From Roseibium sp. TrichSKD4 (GTDB taxonomy: Bacteria > Pseudomonadota > Alphaproteobacteria > Rhizobiales > Stappiaceae), in contig NZ_GL476311.1 of assembly GCF_000148725.1 (NCBI RefSeq), forward strand, positions 131,501 through 195,500: 64,000 nucleotides of DNA. The letters are read 5' to 3'. A program made the translations under genes and the position numbers. The notes beneath the pieces were generated by a model that searched no databases, was not told the DNA's origin, and was given only the letters and a program-made list of their open reading frames with translations. Positions 5,623-38,382 of the stretch are shown in pieces (positions within the stretch are counted from its first letter, which is position 1; every line of letters starts with the position of its first letter).

Positions 5623-6537
5623 ATGGCTGACGAAGGTGGAAAGCAGAAACGTCTTGGACGAGGCCTTGCGGCTCTCATTGGGGATGCTTCGACAACGCCA
5701 GCAGCACCAGAGACCTCGGACCGGATTCAAAAAGACACTCGGCAAGTGCCAATTGAACACTTGTCGCCGAATCCGCGAAATCCTCGCAAGACATTTACCG
5801 AGAAGGACCTGGCAGATCTGTCTGAATCCCTGCGCGCCAAAGGGATTGTCCAACCTATCTTGGTTCGTCCGGCGGCGGGCAAAACAGATCGGTATGAGAT
5901 CATTGCTGGTGAGCGTCGGTGGCGGGCCGCACAACGTGCAGGGTTGCACGAGGCCCCGATCATCATTCGTGATGTCACCGATCAGGAAGCCCTCGAACTT
6001 GCGATTATCGAAAACGTTCAGCGTGCGGACCTGAACCCGATTGAAGAAGCGATGGGTTATGAGCAGCTGACGGCTGAGTTCAAATACAGTCAGGGTGAAT
6101 TGGCCAAAGTGATCGGTAAAAGCCGCAGTCACGTTGCCAATACGATGCGGCTTTTGAAACTGCCGAACTCGGTTAAAGACTATCTCGCTGAAGGACTTTT
6201 GACCGCTGGCCACGCGCGGGCGTTGATCACGGTTGATGATCCGGCGGCATTGGCGGAAATTCTCGTTGAAAAGGGCCTGACGGTCCGCGACGCGGAAAAG
6301 CTGGCTCAAGACCCCGAAGCCCTTGCCCGATTGATGGGGAAGGGCAAGGAGGCATCTCCGCGTCCTGAGAAAGATGCCGATACAAAATCGTTGGAAAAGC
6401 GGCTGACAGATACGCTCGGTTTGAAAGTGACGCTTGGCCATAAGGCTGGCAAGGAATCCGGCGACTTGAAGATCAAATACACATCGCTCGAGCAGCTTGA
6501 TGAGATTTGTAAAAAACTGGGCGTTGAAGTCCGGTAA
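5623..6537 (+). CDS. parB: Chromosome partitioning protein ParB
   Basis: ParB is a CTP-dependent clamp that loads at parS and spreads along the chromosome. The N-terminal ParA-interacting segment KQKRLGRGLAALIGD is followed by the ParB/Srx domain with GERRWRAAQRAG near residue 96 and ENVQRADLNPIEEA. Next come the helix-turn-helix (VIGKSRSHVANTMRLL) and a C-terminal dimer domain. It has 304 residues. The ATG at 5623 has GAGG 6 bases upstream; an in-frame TTG at 5611 is less likely. A strong terminator follows. Confidence 0.97.
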   Translation: MADEGGKQKRLGRGLAALIGDASTTPAAPETSDRIQKDTRQVPIEHLSPNPRNPRKTFTEKDLADLSESLRAKGIVQPILVRPAAGKTDRYEIIAGERRWRAAQRAGLHEAPIIIRDVTDQEALELAIIENVQRADLNPIEEAMGYEQLTAEFKYSQGELAKVIGKSRSHVANTMRLLKLPNSVKDYLAEGLLTAGHARALITVDDPAALAEILVEKGLTVRDAEKLAQDPEALARLMGKGKEASPRPEKDADTKSLEKRLTDTLGLKVTLGHKAGKESGDLKIKYTSLEQLDEICKKLGVEVR

Positions 6538-11724: not shown

Positions 11725-11938
11725 GGCAAAAAGGGAGCCTTTTCCTTGACTCTCTGGCCTTCTTGTGGCATCTCGCGCCCACTCCATATGAGTGAGTAGA
11801 TACATTCGATTGCCGACTGGGACCCGAAAAGGTGTAAAGAGTTCCCGGAGGTTCACACCCGACAGCGCGATGCGCCCTCGGGTGCGATACTGCTTTGTGC
11901 ATTCGTTTGCGCCAAAGGTGATTTGCTGCTCAAGGAAA

Positions 11939-22452: not shown

Positions 22453-22780
22453 GTACTTGGCATACACCGCCTATGCCGATAGATGTCTCCAATTTGCCGA
22501 CATATAACCAAATGTGCCTGGCTTAAGCAGCGCGCACTGTGTGTTTGCATCGGGTGTCAGCGATAGCGGCATGAGCACTTTCATTTTTGGTAAACAAAAG
22601 AATAAGCTGTAAACGGCAAAAGTGACGTAGCGGGTTCACTCCCTTAAGGGTTGTTTTAAAAGGGTTGGGCTCTTTGAGCCAATTGACAGCTTTTTCAATG
22701 TAAAACTGCCATCGCATTATTAACAACTGGAAGAGTAAATTCCGATAGCACGCATAGGTCTCTTGAAGGAGCCCTGTGTC
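22453..22780. other. Gene-free gap upstream of the TadG-like pair
   Basis: No convincing reading frame was found in these 328 bases. TTAA boxes at 22644-22647 and 22656-22659 have an 8-base spacer, one off the CtrA spacing, so they were not called. The gap probably contains the promoter of the TadG-like genes. Confidence 0.5.
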
Positions 22781-24181
22781 GTGTTCGAAAGCAAAAACTC
22801 TTCGTATTTTCATAAGTTTGGTAGTGATGAGCGCGGTTCGCTCCTGCCCCTGGTTGCTGGTGTGTGTCTTATTCTTTTGGTGGTAGCAGGGTCGGCCGTC
22901 GACTATGGAAGAGCACTGGGCTATCGCCATAAAATTGCTAATGCGGTCGACGCAGCTGCACTTACCGTGGCAAAGCAGCTTTCAACAACGGTTCTGACTG
23001 AAAATCAAATACGGACCGGTCTGAAGAATGCGTTCCGTGCCAATTTGAACGCAGCCGGGATCAATTCACAAGGTATAGACAATCTGGACTTCAAAGTTGA
23101 TCCGGGTGAAGGGACACTGGATGTTTGGTCTAGCGTAGATATTCAAACCAACTTTATCAAACTCGGCGGAATAGGCCCTGAGAAACTGGAAGTTGGCGCA
23201 GCTTCGCAAGTCAATTACTCCCGGTTTGACGTTGAACTGGCACTCGTATTGGACGTCACCGGCTCTATGAGGCCGGACATGAATGCTCTCAAGGAAGCAT
23301 CAAAATCGATTGTCAATATTCTACTTCCAGACGACAGCAATAGTCGTGAATCAAAAGTAAGAATTTCTTTGGTTCCGTACTCTCAAGGCGTAAATCTTGG
23401 AAGTTATGCAACTCGGGTAACAAATGGCGGATCTACTTGGCGCAACTGCGTGAATGAACGGTCCGGGCCACAAAAATTCACAGATGCACCGTATAATTAT
23501 GCTGGGAGCAGATCAGATTTTTTTCATGGAAAACCAAAGCAATTTGTTTGGGATTATGGGTGGACAGAACAATGGCAAACTCGGCCAGAGGCTTGTCCCA
23601 AAACAGCGGTTGAGCCACTAACAGCAGACCGTACGAAACTGCTTCGCGCTATCAGCGGTTTAAAGGACGGCGGTGGAACTGGCGGGCAAACCGGGATTGC
23701 GTGGGGTTGGTATACCTTATCACCAAAGTGGAAAAACCTTTGGCCCAGGGACAGTGCACCTGCTACCTACGGAACGGGTTCCCATACGGACGACACCAAG
23801 AAATTTGCTCTCATCATGACGGATGGTGACTTCAATGCGGCGTATGGGTGGGACTGCGGTTGTAGAAAAATTCGTGACAAACCACTATACTGTCGTAAAA
23901 AATCAAATAAAAAGTCATGGATTGAAAGATACTTTTCTCCTTCAAAAATTAGCCACGCACCTGCACAACGAGCAAAGAAACTGTGCGATGAAATGAAATC
24001 CAAAAATATCGAGATATTTACAGTTTACTTCGATACGGGGGGGGCGACTTTTGGTGATGATCTGATGTCTTATTGTGCTAGTGGCTCAAGGAACTACTAT
24101 AGAGCTGACAACTCAAATGAATTGATACAAGCTTTCTCGAATATTGCTAATGAAATACAGTCTATCTATATCGCTAAATAG
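22781..24181 (+). CDS. TadG-like pilus assembly protein with von Willebrand factor A domain
   Basis: This protein has an N-terminal inner-membrane anchor (DERGSLLPLVAGVCLILLVV, the TadG/TadE-type segment) and a helical linker (IANAVDAAALTVAKQL). A VWA domain follows with the metal-binding motif DVTGSM near residue 163 and IMTDGDFN near 347. It is 466 residues. GTG 22781 was chosen because GAAGGAG lies about 10 bases upstream; an in-frame TTG at 22763 is the alternative. It is closely related to the next gene (shared VPYSQGVNLG, PYNYAG/YYNYRG and GIAWGW segments), so the two are tandem duplicates. Confidence 0.82.
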   Translation: MFESKNSSYFHKFGSDERGSLLPLVAGVCLILLVVAGSAVDYGRALGYRHKIANAVDAAALTVAKQLSTTVLTENQIRTGLKNAFRANLNAAGINSQGIDNLDFKVDPGEGTLDVWSSVDIQTNFIKLGGIGPEKLEVGAASQVNYSRFDVELALVLDVTGSMRPDMNALKEASKSIVNILLPDDSNSRESKVRISLVPYSQGVNLGSYATRVTNGGSTWRNCVNERSGPQKFTDAPYNYAGSRSDFFHGKPKQFVWDYGWTEQWQTRPEACPKTAVEPLTADRTKLLRAISGLKDGGGTGGQTGIAWGWYTLSPKWKNLWPRDSAPATYGTGSHTDDTKKFALIMTDGDFNAAYGWDCGCRKIRDKPLYCRKKSNKKSWIERYFSPSKISHAPAQRAKKLCDEMKSKNIEIFTVYFDTGGATFGDDLMSYCASGSRNYYRADNSNELIQAFSNIANEIQSIYIAK

Positions 24182-24323: not shown

Positions 24324-25807
24324 GTGAAAATATCGAAATATTTCAATGTATTACGTAAGGTTAAAGAGTGCAGTGCGGGATCGATAATTCCCCTCATTCC
24401 GCTCTGGTTTTGCTTGTTGTCGTGGTTGTTGGATCAGGAATTGATCTAACAAGCGCGTTGAATGCAAGAAGCAAGATGGCCAATGCCTTGGACGCTTCTG
24501 CCTTAAAACTCGCTGGAAAGTTATCGGTTGCAAAGCTATCGGATGACGAGATCCAAGCTGGCCTTGAGAAGATGTTCACAGCCAACCTTTCGCGGTTTGA
24601 TCTGAAAGCATCTGCCCTTTCCGAGCTTGAGTTTGAGGTTGATTGGACAAAAGGCATACTTGATGTGTGGTCAGATGTTTCTGTTAAGACACACTTTATC
24701 GGGCTGGGGGGCTTAGGGCCTGAAAAGCTTGATGTTGGTGTGACATCCCGCGTTTCCTTTGCCTCTCAGGCATTGGAGTTAGCCCTTGTTCTCGATGTCA
24801 CCGGTTCCATGGACGGGGACATCTCCAGTCTTAAAGAAGCCAGCCAGCTCTTGTTTGAAGCCCTGGTTCCCGAAAACGCTGGTCGACACGATCAACGGAT
24901 ACGCGTTTCGATTGTGCCCTATTCTCAAGGGGTCAATCTTGGGGCCAAGGCTTGGAAGGTTACAAACCGTCAGTCGGACAGTTCCAATTGTGTTGCGACG
25001 AGAGGCGGCCCAAATGCCTTCACCGATGCTTATTACAACTACCGTGGAGCGCGGTCGAACTTCTTCGTTGCACCTGGTGCGCTTGATTATTTTGTAATTC
25101 GTCGCGGTTCGAATGTGTCGTGGTATCCGCCGCGGAACAATTGTCCTGAGTCTGAAATCCTTCCGCTGACAAACAGTCGCAAAACGCTTCTGGCTGCTGT
25201 TGATGCATTGGAAGCCCAAGGTGGAACAGCAGGCCAAGCTGGCATTGCCTGGGGCTGGAAGGCGTTGTCCTGGACTTGGCATCCATTTTGGCCAAGCGGA
25301 AGTGACCCAGCCAAATCTTTTTCATCCCAAGTCGGAAAAGCGGCCGTCATCATGACGGACGGGGATTTCAACGTTCATTACACAGAGCGGTTTAACGCCG
25401 GGTGCGCGCCGGTAGAAGAAACTGATGGCGAAGATTCGACCCATGGTGGGAAACGGAACCGCCGGGATAATGACGACGACGATGATGATGATGATGATGA
25501 TAAAAAAAGAGAACGTGGTGGCCGGTGTTCTGGCGGGACTTACAGCATAGAGGAGTATCTGCCCGGCGCGACAAAGCGTGATGCACCTGCAACCCAAGCC
25601 CTCGCGTTGTGTGAAGCAATGAAGGAACAGGACGTCGTTATTTACACCGTCTATTTCGAGACAACTGGCGCCAAGTTTGGCAAGGATCTCATGAAATCTT
25701 GTGCAAGTGATCCAGATAAATTCTATCTTGCGGAAGACAGGGATGGTCTAAAAGCGGCGTTTTCAGCAATCGCGATAGACAATCTCTCAATTTATCTCGC
25801 CAAATAA
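24324..25807 (+). pseudogene. Second TadG-like VWA protein, apparent frameshift near the N-terminus
   Basis: A GTG at 24324 opens a frame (KISKYFNVLRKVKECSAGSI, then IPLI) that matches the start of TadG anchors but ends at a TAA at 24447-24449. The rest lies in the -1 frame: ALVLLVVVVVGSGIDLTSA, a VWA domain with LVLDVTGSMDG, and VIMTDGDFN. One missing base near 24394-24403 would join them; the total length (1,484) is one base short of a codon multiple. A GTG at 24368 could start a shortened 479-residue protein that keeps the hydrophobic segment, so it may still be made. It contains a run of ten aspartates and is a tandem duplicate of the preceding gene. Confidence 0.68.
25472..25501 (+). repeat. 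In-frame GAC/GAT trinucleotide repeat encoding ten aspartates
   Basis: Three GAC codons followed by seven GAT codons encode Asp10 in the second TadG-like protein, between the VWA core and a Lys/Arg/Gly-rich patch (KKRERGG). The pure GAT part is a microsatellite that can change length without breaking the frame. The paralogue upstream lacks it. Confidence 0.9.
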
Positions 25808-25856: not shown

Positions 25857-27794
25857 TTACGCCCGATTCTGCCGGTTATCGATCAAATCGTCGACCACAG
25901 CCGGGTCAGCCAGTGTCGAGGTATCGCCGAGGCTGTCAAAGCTGTCTTCCGCGATTTTGCGCAGGATCCGGCGCATAATCTTGCCGGATCGTGTCTTTGG
26001 CAGACCCGGAGCAAACTGGATAAGATCCGGTGATGCAATTGGGCCAATTTCAGAGCGGACATGCGTGACGAGCTCTTTTTTCAGCGCGTCGTTTGGTTCT
26101 TCACCTTCCATCAGGGTGACATAGGCGTAGATGCCCTGCCCCTTGATATCGTGCGGATAACCAACAACCGCTGCTTCGGAAACCTTTGTATGGGCAACAA
26201 GCGCGCTTTCAATTTCCGCAGTTCCCATCCGGTGACCAGAGACGTTGATAACATCGTCAACGCGGCCGGTAATCCAGTAATAGCCGTCTTCATCGCGGCG
26301 ACAGCCGTCACCGGTGAAGTAATAACCCTTGTAGGTGGAGAAGTAGGTCTGAACGAACCGCTCATGGTCGCCATAAACGGTGCGCATCTGGCCCGGCCAA
26401 CTGTCGGTCATGACAAGGTTGCCTTCCGTGGCTCCTTCGAGGATCTTGCCTTCCGCATCCACGATTGCCGGCTGTACACCAAAGAACGGACGGGTAGCTG
26501 AGCCCGGTTTCAGGTCGGTTGCGCCGGGTAGCGGGGTAATCAGGATGCCGCCTGTTTCGGTCTGCCACCAGGTATCGACAATCGGACACCGGCCTTTGCC
26601 AACTACGTTGTAATACCAGGTCCATGCCTCTGGGTTGATCGGCTCGCCCACTGAACCCAATAGACGAAGTGAGTCCAGAGAGCATTTTTCGACATGCTCG
26701 TTACCAGCGCCCATCAGCGCACGGATTGCAGTCGGTGCAGTGTAGAAAATGCTGACTTTGTGCTTGTCGCAGACATCCCAGAACCGGCCCGGGGTTGGGT
26801 AGGTTGGCACGCCCTCAAACATCAGGGTTGTTGCGCCGTTGGCAAGCGGGCCATAAACGATGTAGCTGTGGCCAGTGACCCAACCCACATCCGCCGTACA
26901 CCAGTAGACGTCCCCGTCTTGATAATCGAAGACATACTGATGGGTCATGGAGGCATAGACGAGGTAACCACCAGTGGTGTGCAGAACACCCTTCGGTTGG
27001 CCGGTTGACCCGGAGGTGTAGAGAATGAACAGCGGATCTTCAGCGTTCATCTCGACCGGTTCGCAGTGATCGGAAACCCGATCTGCTTCTTCGTGGTACC
27101 AAACATCACGGCCATCAGCCATGGAGATGTCGCCGCCTGTGCGCTTCACCACGATGACAGTGTCTACGGATACTTTTTCAACTGCCTTGTCGACATTGGC
27201 TTTCAACGGCACTTTTCGGCCACCGCGGAGACCTTCGTCCGCAGTAATGACGCACTTGCTTTCACAGCCTTCGAGGCGCTGGGCCAGGCTATCTGGTGAA
27301 AACCCGCCAAAGACGATGGAGTGGACAGCGCCGATGCGTGCACAGGCCAGCATCGCGTAGGCTGCTTCGGGGATCATCGGCAAGTAGATGGTGACGCGAT
27401 CACCCTTCTTGACGCCTTGCGCGTGAAGAACGTTGGCAAAGACATTCACTTCATGATGAAGCTGCTTATAGGTGATAACCTTGCTTTCAGAAGGGTCATC
27501 GCCTTCCCAGATAATTGCTGGCTGATCGCCGCGTTTTTCAAGATGGCGATCTACGCAGTTTGCAGAGACGTTCAAGGTCCCATCTTCGAACCACTTAATG
27601 TCGACGTTGTGGTAGTCGTAGGAGGTGTTCTTGACCTTGGTGTAAGGCTTGATCCAGTCGACCCGCTTGCCGTGCTCACCCCAAAATGCTTCAGGGTTGT
27701 CGACGGACTGCTTGTACATTTCAAGATACTTGGCGTTATCGACGTGTGCTTTCGCAGCAATGTCTGCCGGGACAGGGAATACATTGTCTGACAT
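25857..27794 (-). CDS. acs: Acetyl-coenzyme A synthetase
   Basis: Acs activates acetate to acetyl-CoA through acetyl-AMP. This adenylate-forming enzyme is 645 residues and full length. It carries the ATP loop [20 protein letters not shown], the acetate/CoA-site segment [11 protein letters not shown], the hinge [20 protein letters not shown] and the C-terminal catalytic lysine in [10 protein letters not shown], which is the acetylation target in this family. The DUF1761 gene lies upstream on the same strand with 182 bases between. It probably feeds the acyl-CoA metabolism represented later in the window. Confidence 0.97.
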
Positions 27795-27976: not shown

Positions 27977-28393
27977 TTACTGCACTGTCGGCCAGCTGCC
28001 GACCGCTCCGATCACGACCCCCTGAATAAGGAGCACACCAAACCAGTGACCACTGTCAATAATCGTGAGGCTCCAAGGGCGCTTCTGGAACCGGTAGTTG
28101 ACGACTTGGGTTGCAAGGATGAATCCGGCCCAGACCAGAGTGGCGGAAATCAATCCTGAATGAATTGATGTGCCTCCGGTATGGTAGATCACACCGGCTA
28201 GTATGAAGGCCATCAGAAACTGGCAACTGAAGGTCAAGACCATCGTGAATGCTGAGGGTTGAGCGTCATCGGGGCCGAGGCTTGCTGCGCGCATCCAAGC
28301 CTTGCTGAAAATCGTGTACCACAGCGCGCCGAACAAGGTGCTGGCTATCGCTCCAAAAAGAGCACCCAGAAGGTTGATACCGTCAAACATCAT
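27977..28393 (-). CDS. DUF1761 family membrane protein
   Basis: This 138-residue protein has four predicted membrane helices: LLGALFGAIASTLFGALWYT, a second around MVLTFSCQFLMAFILAG, a third around SATLVWAGFILATQV, and a C-terminal segment. The W-Y-x-x-F-S-K-A-W motif after helix 1 is typical of DUF1761. The function is unknown. The start at 28393 (MMFDGINLLG) is preferred over an in-frame start at 28441, because the extra residues have no membrane or signal character. Confidence 0.78.
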   Translation of the reverse strand: MMFDGINLLGALFGAIASTLFGALWYTIFSKAWMRAASLGPDDAQPSAFTMVLTFSCQFLMAFILAGVIYHTGGTSIHSGLISATLVWAGFILATQVVNYRFQKRPWSLTIIDSGHWFGVLLIQGVVIGAVGSWPTVQ

Positions 28394-28477: not shown

Positions 28478-28509
28478 AAAAAAGGCCCGCCTAAAGTTCA
28501 GACGGGCCT
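28478..28509 (-). terminator. Terminator of the first GTDRGG gene
   Basis: Read on the minus strand, AGGCCCG and CGGGCCT form a 7-bp stem with a 13-base loop, followed by TTTTTTC. It lies about 40 bases beyond the stop of the gene at 28550. Confidence 0.8.
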
Positions 28510-28549: not shown

Positions 28550-28873
28550 TTAGTTCTTCTTGCGAACAACACCGCCGCGGTCGTTGCCTTTGTTCTCATA
28601 CTGAGAGTCGGCAGACGCTGAAGAACCGGACGGACGAACGTTGACTTCACAGCCCGGCTTAATGGTGATGCGGCCACCACGGTCAGTACCTGCATTTACG
28701 ATGCAGTCGTTGTCCATGATGATCTTCGGGTTGGATTTTACTTCGCCGTGCTGGATGATAACGCCACCACGGTCAGTGCCGATGTTGGTGGAATTTTGAG
28801 CAGAAGCGGCGGTTGCGAAAGCCATAGAAGATGTGGCGATTGCAGCGATAGCGATTGTTTTAAGTGCAGACAT
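28550..28873 (-). CDS. Small exported protein with three GTDRGG-type motifs
   Basis: I do not recognise this family. The 107-residue product has a signal peptide (SALKTIAIAAIATSSMAFA then TAASAQ) and a mature part of about 82 residues. Three copies of a motif N-x-G-[TN]-D-R-G-G occur: NIGTDRGGVI, NAGTDRGGRI and NKGNDRGGVV, the last almost at the C-terminus. Two cysteines (DC and GC) lie between and after the first two copies and could form a disulfide. The ATG at 28873 directly precedes the signal peptide; an in-frame start at 28915 is unlikely. A related gene lies next to it on the same strand, 248 bases upstream. Confidence 0.8.
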   Translation of the reverse strand: MSALKTIAIAAIATSSMAFATAASAQNSTNIGTDRGGVIIQHGEVKSNPKIIMDNDCIVNAGTDRGGRITIKPGCEVNVRPSGSSASADSQYENKGNDRGGVVRKKN

Positions 28874-29081
28874 CTGTTTTCCCTGTTTTTCTTCCTTAAA
28901 CTGCCTTAGTTGCACGGACTCAAATTCCGTAGGGTAGTTCGATAGTTACAAGGCAGTTTGGGTGTGATTCATCTATGATCTTCAACGTTAGGTGAATGGC
29001 ATTATTATCAATGGTTTTAATAGGTATTGATTATGTGGGTTGATTACTGGGGTGAACTGCTAGTCAAAGCGAGTACGAACA

Positions 29082-29097
29082 GGGGCTGAAAAGCCCC
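29082..29097 (-). other. Short hairpin after the second GTDRGG gene
   Basis: GGGGCT and AGCCCC form a 6-bp stem with a GAAA tetraloop on the plus strand. It lies 24 bases beyond the stop of the gene at 29121. No T run follows on the minus strand, so it is a weak terminator or simply a structured 3' end. Confidence 0.4.
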
Positions 29098-29120
29098 CAT
29101 CGTAGAAGGCGCGCCTTTTA

Positions 29121-29450
29121 CTAGCGAAGTCGGATGACACCGCCGCGGTCGGTTCCGGCATTCCGATAATTCGGGTCAGAAACCACCTCGGTTCCGAAAG
29201 ATGGCGACTTTTCGACTTGCGTCAAAAGTGTGTGCCATTGGCTGCCGTGGTCAGCGTAGATTTTGGATTTGGAATAAGTGTTTTGTGTGCTGGCAGCTTT
29301 TGGTGCCGGGATCGAATTGCCTGAAAGGTCGACAATTACGCCGCCGCGGTCAGTTCCAAGATTCACAAGGCCTGCAGCTTGGGTAGCAGTGCCAATTGTT
29401 GCCAAAGCGAATGCCAAACCGGCAACTTTCAAAGTGGATTTGATGGTCAT
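29121..29450 (-). CDS. Small exported protein with two GTDRGG motifs
   Basis: This is a paralogue of the 28550-28873 product and is equally unrecognised. The 109-residue protein has a signal peptide (VAGLAFALATIGTATQAAG). GTDRGG motifs lie near the mature N-terminus (NLGTDRGGVIV) and at the extreme C-terminus (NAGTDRGGVIRLR). The middle (about 60 residues) is unrelated to the paralogue and rich in Ser, Thr and Lys. Both proteins end in N-x-G-x-D-R-G-G-V-x-R plus basic residues, so the C-terminal copy looks like the constrained part. The gene has its own upstream region (about 160 bases). Confidence 0.8.
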   Translation of the reverse strand: MTIKSTLKVAGLAFALATIGTATQAAGLVNLGTDRGGVIVDLSGNSIPAPKAASTQNTYSKSKIYADHGSQWHTLLTQVEKSPSFGTEVVSDPNYRNAGTDRGGVIRLR

Positions 29451-29613
29451 GATCTTTTCCTTTCCTCATTGTCCCAGGAGGTCTGCCCCCGGTACCAAAT
29501 GAGTTGGGAATTGGTCAGAACACGTTCAAATCAACTGGCAGCGAGCCATAATCTCTTTTTCCTCACGTAGCGGTGAGTTGGTCGTGTACTTAGGTTTTGA
29601 ACACACTTGCTCT

Positions 29614-30216
29614 TTAATCGTTCGTGAGGGTTGCCACCATTTTTTCATAGGCGGGCCGGTCACGCAGGCGTTTGAAATAGTCATAGACTGCACCTGACTT
29701 TGGAAGGTCAAACTTCGCGAACACCGCCCAACCGCCGCAATGTCCGATGATAATGTCAGCGATGGTCATTTGCTCGCCCATGACATAAGGGCCGTCACCG
29801 AGCCGAATTTCCAGAACTTCCAGTCCCTTCTGAAACTCATATTTGCAGACTTCCTTTATCTCGGGCACACGAAGGGTTTCGGGGTGGACAAAAGTGTTCT
29901 TTGCTGCGGTCCACAGCGCTCCTTCAAGCACATCAACGGCTAATTGGGTGAAGCTATCTTGAAGAGCGCGCTCGCCGGTTCCTGCCGGATAGGTAAACTG
30001 CTGATGTTTGTCTGCCAGATAGGTGCAAATTGCAACAGACTCACTCACCACAAACTTGCCGTCCATGAGAACGGGAACCCGCCCCGACGGATTGAGCGAG
30101 CGAATGGTCTCAGATTGCGGCATTTGTGGATCGATCTCATATGGCAGACCAAGCTCCTCCAAAAGCCAAATGACCCGCATGGCGCGTGTGCGCGGAAACC
30201 CGACGATCTTGTACAC
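29614..30216 (-). CDS. Glutathione S-transferase family protein
   Basis: This cytosolic GST is predicted to conjugate glutathione or reduce hydroperoxides. An N-terminal thioredoxin-fold domain (residues 1-78) has the cis-proline segment NPSGRVPVL and the glutathione-binding VVSESVAI. A C-terminal helical domain has MGEQMTIADIIIG with the N-capping box. It is 200 residues. The first beta strand (MYKIVGFPRTRAMRVIWLL) gives an arginine/threonine-type start rather than a tyrosine class. The substrate is unknown. Confidence 0.9.
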   Translation of the reverse strand: MYKIVGFPRTRAMRVIWLLEELGLPYEIDPQMPQSETIRSLNPSGRVPVLMDGKFVVSESVAICTYLADKHQQFTYPAGTGERALQDSFTQLAVDVLEGALWTAAKNTFVHPETLRVPEIKEVCKYEFQKGLEVLEIRLGDGPYVMGEQMTIADIIIGHCGGWAVFAKFDLPKSGAVYDYFKRLRDRPAYEKMVATLTND

Positions 30217-37701: not shown

Positions 37702-38382
37702 ATGTTTGTTCCATTATACGATCACAATCGTCTTGATCACGTTACACGCCCTTACGTGAATTATGCGTTCATTGGCGTAAATGTGATCATTTTTGCTGTT
37801 CTGCAACGCTTTGGTTTGGGTGAAACGGCCACCGCTTCAGCCTATTCTCACGGCTTGGTGCCAAGTGTGTTTTTCGAGATCAAGGAGCTGCCAGCTGAGC
37901 TGCAGGTCCTGCCGGATTATGTCTCGATTTTCACCTATGCCTTTCTTCATGGCGATGTCTGGCATTTGGGCGGGAATATGTTGTTCCTCTGGGTGTTCGG
38001 CGACAACATCGAAGACGCGCTGGGCCATGTCCGTTACTTTTTCTTCTACCTGCTGTGCGCTGCCGCTGGCGGGTTGTTTTATACCCTCGCCAATTTCGGG
38101 TCTGATGTTCCTCTGGTTGGCGCGTCGGGTGCGGTGGCCGGGGTTGTTGGGGCTTATCTCGTCCTGCATCCCAAGGTGATGATTTGGGTGCTTGCCCTTG
38201 GTCGTTTCCCTGTGCCAATTCCTGCCGGATTGGTTCTTGGCTTCTGGGTCGGTTATCAGGTTTTCAATGCCGTTTTCGGGCCAGAAAGCCACATTGCTTG
38301 GTCGGCACATATTGGAGGAATTCTGGCTGGCTGTTTGCTGGTGGTTTTCATGCGTCGACGGGGCGTTCAATTGTTTGACTGA
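37702..38382 (+). CDS. Rhomboid-family intramembrane serine protease
   Basis: This is a polytopic inner-membrane protease of 226 residues with about six helices. The catalytic serine is in VGASGAVAGVVGAYL, and the catalytic histidine is in WSAHIGGILAG in the last helix. The first periplasmic loop carries YAFLHGDVWHLGGNMLFLWVFG, with the conserved H-x-x-x-N region. It starts 39 bases after the cobalamin adenosyltransferase gene and may share its transcript. Substrates are unknown. Confidence 0.92.
   Translation: MFVPLYDHNRLDHVTRPYVNYAFIGVNVIIFAVLQRFGLGETATASAYSHGLVPSVFFEIKELPAELQVLPDYVSIFTYAFLHGDVWHLGGNMLFLWVFGDNIEDALGHVRYFFFYLLCAAAGGLFYTLANFGSDVPLVGASGAVAGVVGAYLVLHPKVMIWVLALGRFPVPIPAGLVLGFWVGYQVFNAVFGPESHIAWSAHIGGILAGCLLVVFMRRRGVQLFD

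Follow-up and report, generated by a model that had tools for sequence, protein, structure and literature searches.

A lineage-restricted family of small, predicted exported proteins with a repeated glycine-containing motif in Roseibium sp. TrichSKD4

The two genes and their motif

The window considered in this study is a stretch of 64,000 nucleotides from Roseibium sp. TrichSKD4. Within it lie two adjacent genes on the minus strand, to which I will refer as A and B, encoding proteins of 107 and 109 residues with signal-peptide-like starts. The pair is flanked on one side by a glutathione S-transferase-like gene (GST; 29614-30216) and on the other by genes for a DUF1761 protein (27977-28384) and acetyl-CoA synthetase (acs; 25857-27794). 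None of the neighbors is indicative of function. The features of the two genes are listed below, where L001 stands for the locus of Roseibium sediminis considered in the next section.

29121..29450, minus strand: gene B, predicted exported protein of 109 aa with 2 motif copies; orthologue L001:5415-5744
29376..29450, minus strand: predicted signal peptide of B, 25 aa, TQA^AGLV (hydrophobic stretch and A-x-A rule)
29334..29363, minus strand: motif copy B1, NLGTDRGGVI, starting at mature residue 5
29133..29162, minus strand: motif copy B2, NAGTDRGGVI, ending 3 residues short of the C-terminus
28550..28873, minus strand: gene A, predicted exported protein of 107 aa with 3 motif copies and 2 conserved cysteines; orthologue L001:6001-6321
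28799..28873, minus strand: predicted signal peptide of A, 25 aa, ASA^QNST (hydrophobic stretch and A-x-A rule)
28757..28786, minus strand: motif copy A1, NIGTDRGGVI, starting at mature residue 5
28667..28696, minus strand: motif copy A2, NAGTDRGGRI
28565..28594, minus strand: motif copy A3, NKGNDRGGVV, ending 4 residues short of the C-terminus

Signal peptides and cleavage sites were called by a simple rule (a hydrophobic stretch followed by A-x-A), and the predicted mature parts comprise 82 residues with a pI of 9.1 (A) and 84 residues with a pI of 9.2 (B). The hydrophobic starts and A-x-A type sites support the signal peptides that a preliminary description of this DNA had assigned to A and B, and its view of the two as paralogues is supported as well.

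That description had also reported five copies of N-x-G-[TN]-D-R-G-G, three in one protein and two in the other, and a six-frame scan of the window bears this out: the pattern occurs at exactly five sites, three in A and two in B, all on the minus strand (28571-28594, 28673-28696, 28763-28786, 29139-29162 and 29340-29363), within 2 bases of where they had been placed. Bare DRGG occurs eight times across the six frames. Shuffling both mature proteins 100,000 times produced the strict motif once. A possible third copy, degenerate and midway along B, was considered and found unsupported, the best other site being equalled in 2271 of 3000 shuffles of the window protein and in 2026 of 3000 of its R. 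sediminis counterpart.

The similarity of the DNA encoding the motifs had been taken as a sign that they spread by duplication, and this argument proved weak. Identical codons are found in 36 of 82 same-residue comparisons among the five copies, where the codon usage of 13 long frames of the window would lead one to expect 28.2, and 6.8% of simulations reach 36. Codon identity so near to expectation means that the likeness of the motif DNA is mostly accounted for by the peptide that the copies share. Recent duplication is therefore unsupported; an older duplication may still lie behind the copies.

Relatives and distribution

A scan of the genome collection with an alignment of A and B matched 34 stretches, only one of which encodes a relative. 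It comes from Roseibium sediminis, since transferred, according to PMC12080928, to the genus Soliroseibium of the family Stappiaceae. Both genes recur there, arranged as in the window between GST and DUF1761-acs and with each of the five motifs present, and the proteins are 78% (A) and 61% (B) identical to those of the window.

A search of 87 genomes of the R. sediminis family with P0001 alone gave two members beyond the two known genes, in G059 (E 1.1e-5) and G040 (E 0.0044). Both adjoin DUF1761-acs, after ureG (identified by its CobW/HypB/UreG domain match). Two further matches in this search lack the motif, one inside a 2124-residue frame (G056) and one in a frame of 111 residues that lies opposite a longer frame (G073). 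A profile made from 15 motif copies found 10 sites at E < 1e-4 in the same 87 genomes, every one of them in genes of the acs locus, and weak matches in 46 other genomes, so that 49 of 87 have some match at E <= 1. Among the weak matches are G044 (E 0.044) and G057 (E 0.045), small proteins predicted to be exported, which carry NIGTDRSGR and are encoded between recO and a GGDEF-EAL gene. Their pairwise scores against the other six proteins lie 4.2-7.3 standard deviations above those of shuffles, and at most 2 in 1000 shuffles equal them. I regard the two as probable, borderline relatives on this sequence similarity; a profile that already contains member sequences recovers them by construction.

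The remaining weak matches are best regarded as noise. Beyond the accepted proteins, the 15-copy profile rows inspected were G052, G033, G080, G065, G009 and G049. Three of these outscore G044 and G057 and are unlike a small exported protein: G052 (E 0.006, a 56-residue frame), G033 (E 0.013, within a 538-residue frame) and G080 (E 0.027, a 40-residue frame without Met). Profile searching of the 87 genomes also brought up a periplasmic sugar-binding-like protein (G063) and a 50-residue frame (G058). With a later profile, rejected matches came from five of the 87: larger periplasmic proteins (G054 and G035), a frame opposite a permease-like one (G038), G058 again, and a match in a 518-residue frame (G031).

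Sampling more widely, I found no further convincing members in genomes of the order (samples of 397 and 387, some candidates being left unscored) or of the class (385 screened with a DNA pattern, 376 with a motif profile). In the order sample of 397 there were four matches, all confined to the signal-peptide region of exported proteins of other kinds. The sample of 387 gave 12 matches, all inspected and none accepted. Those in L092-L096 and L099 (E 1.3e-5 to 0.0044) lie in the C-terminal region of order-genome proteins that I take to be HtrA-like, presumably in their PDZ region. They were judged non-homologous because no PDZ model matches the family proteins, and probably reflect a local likeness around a G-V-V-I strand. 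Of the others, L097 lies opposite a binding-protein frame, L101 within a larger frame, and in L098, L100, L102 and L103 the match is again to the signal-peptide region of an unrelated exported protein. Both matches in the class sample of 376 are to frames opposite longer ones.

Within what was searched, then, A and B appear to belong to one small, fast-changing family of predicted exported proteins found only in Stappiaceae. A member is present in five of the 87 genomes of the R. sediminis family, two of the five being borderline. DUF1761 was found at E <= 1e-10 in 64 of the 87, and in the 30 loci of about 3.4 kb examined, ureG lies within the stretch in 26 and a motif gene in three (L015, L016 and L028). 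The other 27 have no frame carrying two motif-like sites, and the family would thus seem to be patchy and dispensable. A frame of 234-245 residues occupies the gap between ureG and DUF1761 instead in 10 of 17 gaps viewed (L021, L030-L032, L036, L038-L041 and L044), which marks the gap beside acs as a variable site.

Conservation of the motif and what it may do

The relatives provide 17 clear copies of the motif in eight proteins, several of them closely related, so that the copies are not independent. Their constant core is N-x-G-x3-[GS]-G-[VIR]-[IVL]. The first G, the last G and the closing I, V or L are found in all 17 copies and N in 16 (K once), and the position two residues before N is Y, F, L or I in 15. 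The positions between are looser: T in 13, D in 13 (otherwise N twice, G once and T once), R in 14, G in 15 (S in two) and, after the last G, V in 12 (R in four, I in one). DRGG, said earlier to be always present, is indeed in every copy of the window but in only 10 of the 17 overall. Since T, D and R each vary in relatives, DRGG does not define the motif and is not its essential part.

All eight proteins have a signal-peptide-like start, a predicted mature length of 82-88 residues and the core motif (criteria read off these same proteins). Where a protein has more than one copy, the copies start 30-67 residues apart. In all six proteins of the acs locus, mature residue 5 is the first position of the first copy, and the last copy is followed by 3-5 residues up to the C-terminus. 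The one clear copy of G044, like that of G057, lies in mid-chain, at residue 40.

Sequence comparison establishes the family, its architecture and selection on the motif. Between the window and R. sediminis, the motif has changed less than the remainder of the mature protein: Ka is 0.015 against 0.111 in A and 0.073 against 0.551 in B. For acs, Ka is 0.035 and synonymous change 1.34; synonymous change is about 0.83-0.84 in A and saturated in B. The suggestion that the motif, and not the rest, is the functional part therefore suits B, whose remainder has a Ka of 0.55, better than A, whose remainder is conserved too (Ka 0.11 against a Ks of 0.84), with both of its cysteines kept in the R. sediminis orthologue. 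The small size of A and B and the lack of database matches might suggest chance or spurious open reading frames, but conserved frames, synteny and a Ka well below Ks for A contradict this, and I consider it extremely improbable.

The preliminary description knew of no family with this motif, and that still stands after a search of family models, structures, plasmids, phages and literature gave no convincing match. Pfam, NCBIfam and PHROGs gave weak matches only (best E 0.026). With hmmscan against Pfam-A (limit E 10, at which filters nonetheless drop most matches above about 0.1), A matched only Rieske_3 at 0.086, below its cut-off, and B matched nothing. The best E-values among solved structures were an unconvincing 0.62 and 0.9, plasmids matched A at 4 and B at 8 and the G044 protein not at all, and the best value among phages was 0.5, with B as query. 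Pattern matches in viral contigs (26 and 44) included no relative. In the literature searched, GTDRGG was found in two papers, both on other subjects, and four longer motif strings were unmatched. A and B would therefore appear to represent a new orphan family, though of a kind that is itself familiar, undescribed as far as these searches went.

Among known systems, the RTX calcium-binding nonapeptides are Gly/Asp-rich repeats in exported proteins, and binding of a metal ion such as calcium through Asp, in their fashion, could be supposed from the Gly/Asp composition of the motif and from D in 13 of the 17 copies. RTX units, however, are tandem and nine residues long, while the copies here lie 30-67 residues apart and the Asp, replaced in four, is not invariant; nor does the Pfam-A scan described above match A or B to the RTX repeat model. 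The variable T, D and R speak against a metal site, and metal binding, which had been offered as a possible role, now seems quite improbable. For the ligand or protease offered beside it, the results speak neither for nor against. Curlin-type amyloid repeats are likewise Asn/Gly-containing units of small exported proteins. Their pattern differs from that of A and B, the curlin model is not among the Pfam matches of either, and there are no curli genes among 14 frames of the window scanned. The nearest described short unit I can name is the Asp-box (BNR), according to PMC2716378 a short, often repeated x-x-D-x-G-x-x-hydrophobic unit that folds as a beta-hairpin and is found in several unrelated folds, with S or T at position 3, D or N at 5 and an aromatic residue at 10. 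The likeness lies in the short repeated unit. In the register set in this analysis, position 3 is G in all 17 copies, position 5 departs from D or N in two (G and T once each; 15 conform), all 17 have I, V or L at position 10, and the Pfam searches gave no match to the Asp-box.

The reading I favor, tentatively, is of a lineage-restricted exported family whose motif serves as a turn-strand element in binding or assembly rather than as a metal site. It is supported by the R. sediminis orthologues, a pair whose order is kept, and by the relatives at the acs locus. A and B would be synthesized, exported across the inner membrane and cut to mature chains of about 82-88 residues, as suggested by the signal-peptide-like start and the fixed position of the motif. 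That D, R and T vary while the glycines and the following hydrophobic residue stay points to a role for the backbone, and N-x-G-x3-[GS]-G-[VIR]-[IVL] would then most likely be a glycine turn leading into a short strand, binding another protein or a further copy of itself. Copies at both chain ends together with the narrow length suggest pairing within or between molecules: given a copy at each mature end, A or B could close on itself or link neighbors, in the periplasm or outside the cell, and the two may form a mixed pair. Counting against this reading is the single clear copy of G044 and G057, in mid-chain and not at the ends.

Structure prediction of both mature proteins, a check proposed at the outset, gave no confident model: AlphaFold2, with alignments of 4 sequences, returned mean pLDDT values of 42.1 and 35.1. 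The turn-strand geometry is accordingly unproven, and the proteins may be disordered. This makes it nearly as likely, and likewise only possible, that the exported proteins are disordered apart from the motif and that a receptor, chaperone or envelope protease recognizes the motif as a short linear element, with linkers as spacers. Besides the missing fold, the diverging linkers of B around a constant motif and the copies at chain ends in the acs-locus proteins are as that explanation would have them. A folded unit is suggested instead by the set positions of the copies and by mature lengths that vary only between 82 and 88, the linkers of A are conserved too, and low pLDDT is expected anyway with four sequences.

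The signal-peptide-like start, the repeated short unit and the basic C-terminal residues could also belong to precursors of secreted peptides, the copies being cut out as signals or bacteriocins. The flanks of the copies differ, however, with no common cutting site seen, and no gene for peptide maturation or immunity was recognized among 14 frames of the window, though there is a rhomboid protease at 37702-38382; I think such precursors improbable. A bolder extension of the turn-strand reading, and an unlikely one, is that the motif is a new module for self- or cross-assembly by which A and B (co)polymerize, in the periplasm or outside, into a lineage-specific envelope layer or matrix fiber.

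What emerges is a family of small proteins, exported by prediction, with a motif that can be checked and an architecture that is fixed. Lineage-restricted orphan families are very numerous, and the interest of this one would grow should its motif turn out to be a new module of assembly or recognition.

Transcription signals and other features of the window

Four features outside the coding regions may bear on the expression of A and B:

29506..29537, minus strand: conserved element 56-87 bases before B, candidate promoter or operator (alignment with L001)
29074..29104, minus strand: hairpin after B, possible terminator (fold z -3.58, not listed by the terminator scan)
28989..29034, minus strand: partly conserved stretch before A, candidate promoter (alignment with L001)
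28483..28509, minus strand: putative intrinsic terminator after A, 12 pairs with a U tail

The terminator scan of the A/B stretch gave 3 sites, against 3.0 expected in shuffles, and so it is the strength of the hairpin after A (12 pairs, -20.4 kcal/mol, z -3.69), rather than the number of sites, that makes the case for a terminator. R. sediminis has hairpins and T runs after both genes (six scan sites, against 2.0 expected), one in the place equivalent to the terminator of A (6360-6385) and another, a scan match after B (5774-5791), with a fold z of -1.28 that is no better than many shuffles. A and B each have their own partly conserved upstream stretch and are probably transcribed separately. 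The stretch before B includes about 32 strongly conserved bases (29506-29537, minus strand) that hold GAAC-GT-GTTC, one base of which differs in R. sediminis.

Elsewhere in the window, two adjacent frames on the plus strand (22763-24181 and 24368-25807) have TadE/TadG-like matches and weak von Willebrand A matches, and an Rfam match of 61.6 bits places an ffh sRNA family member (RF01793) at 11841-11892 on the plus strand.
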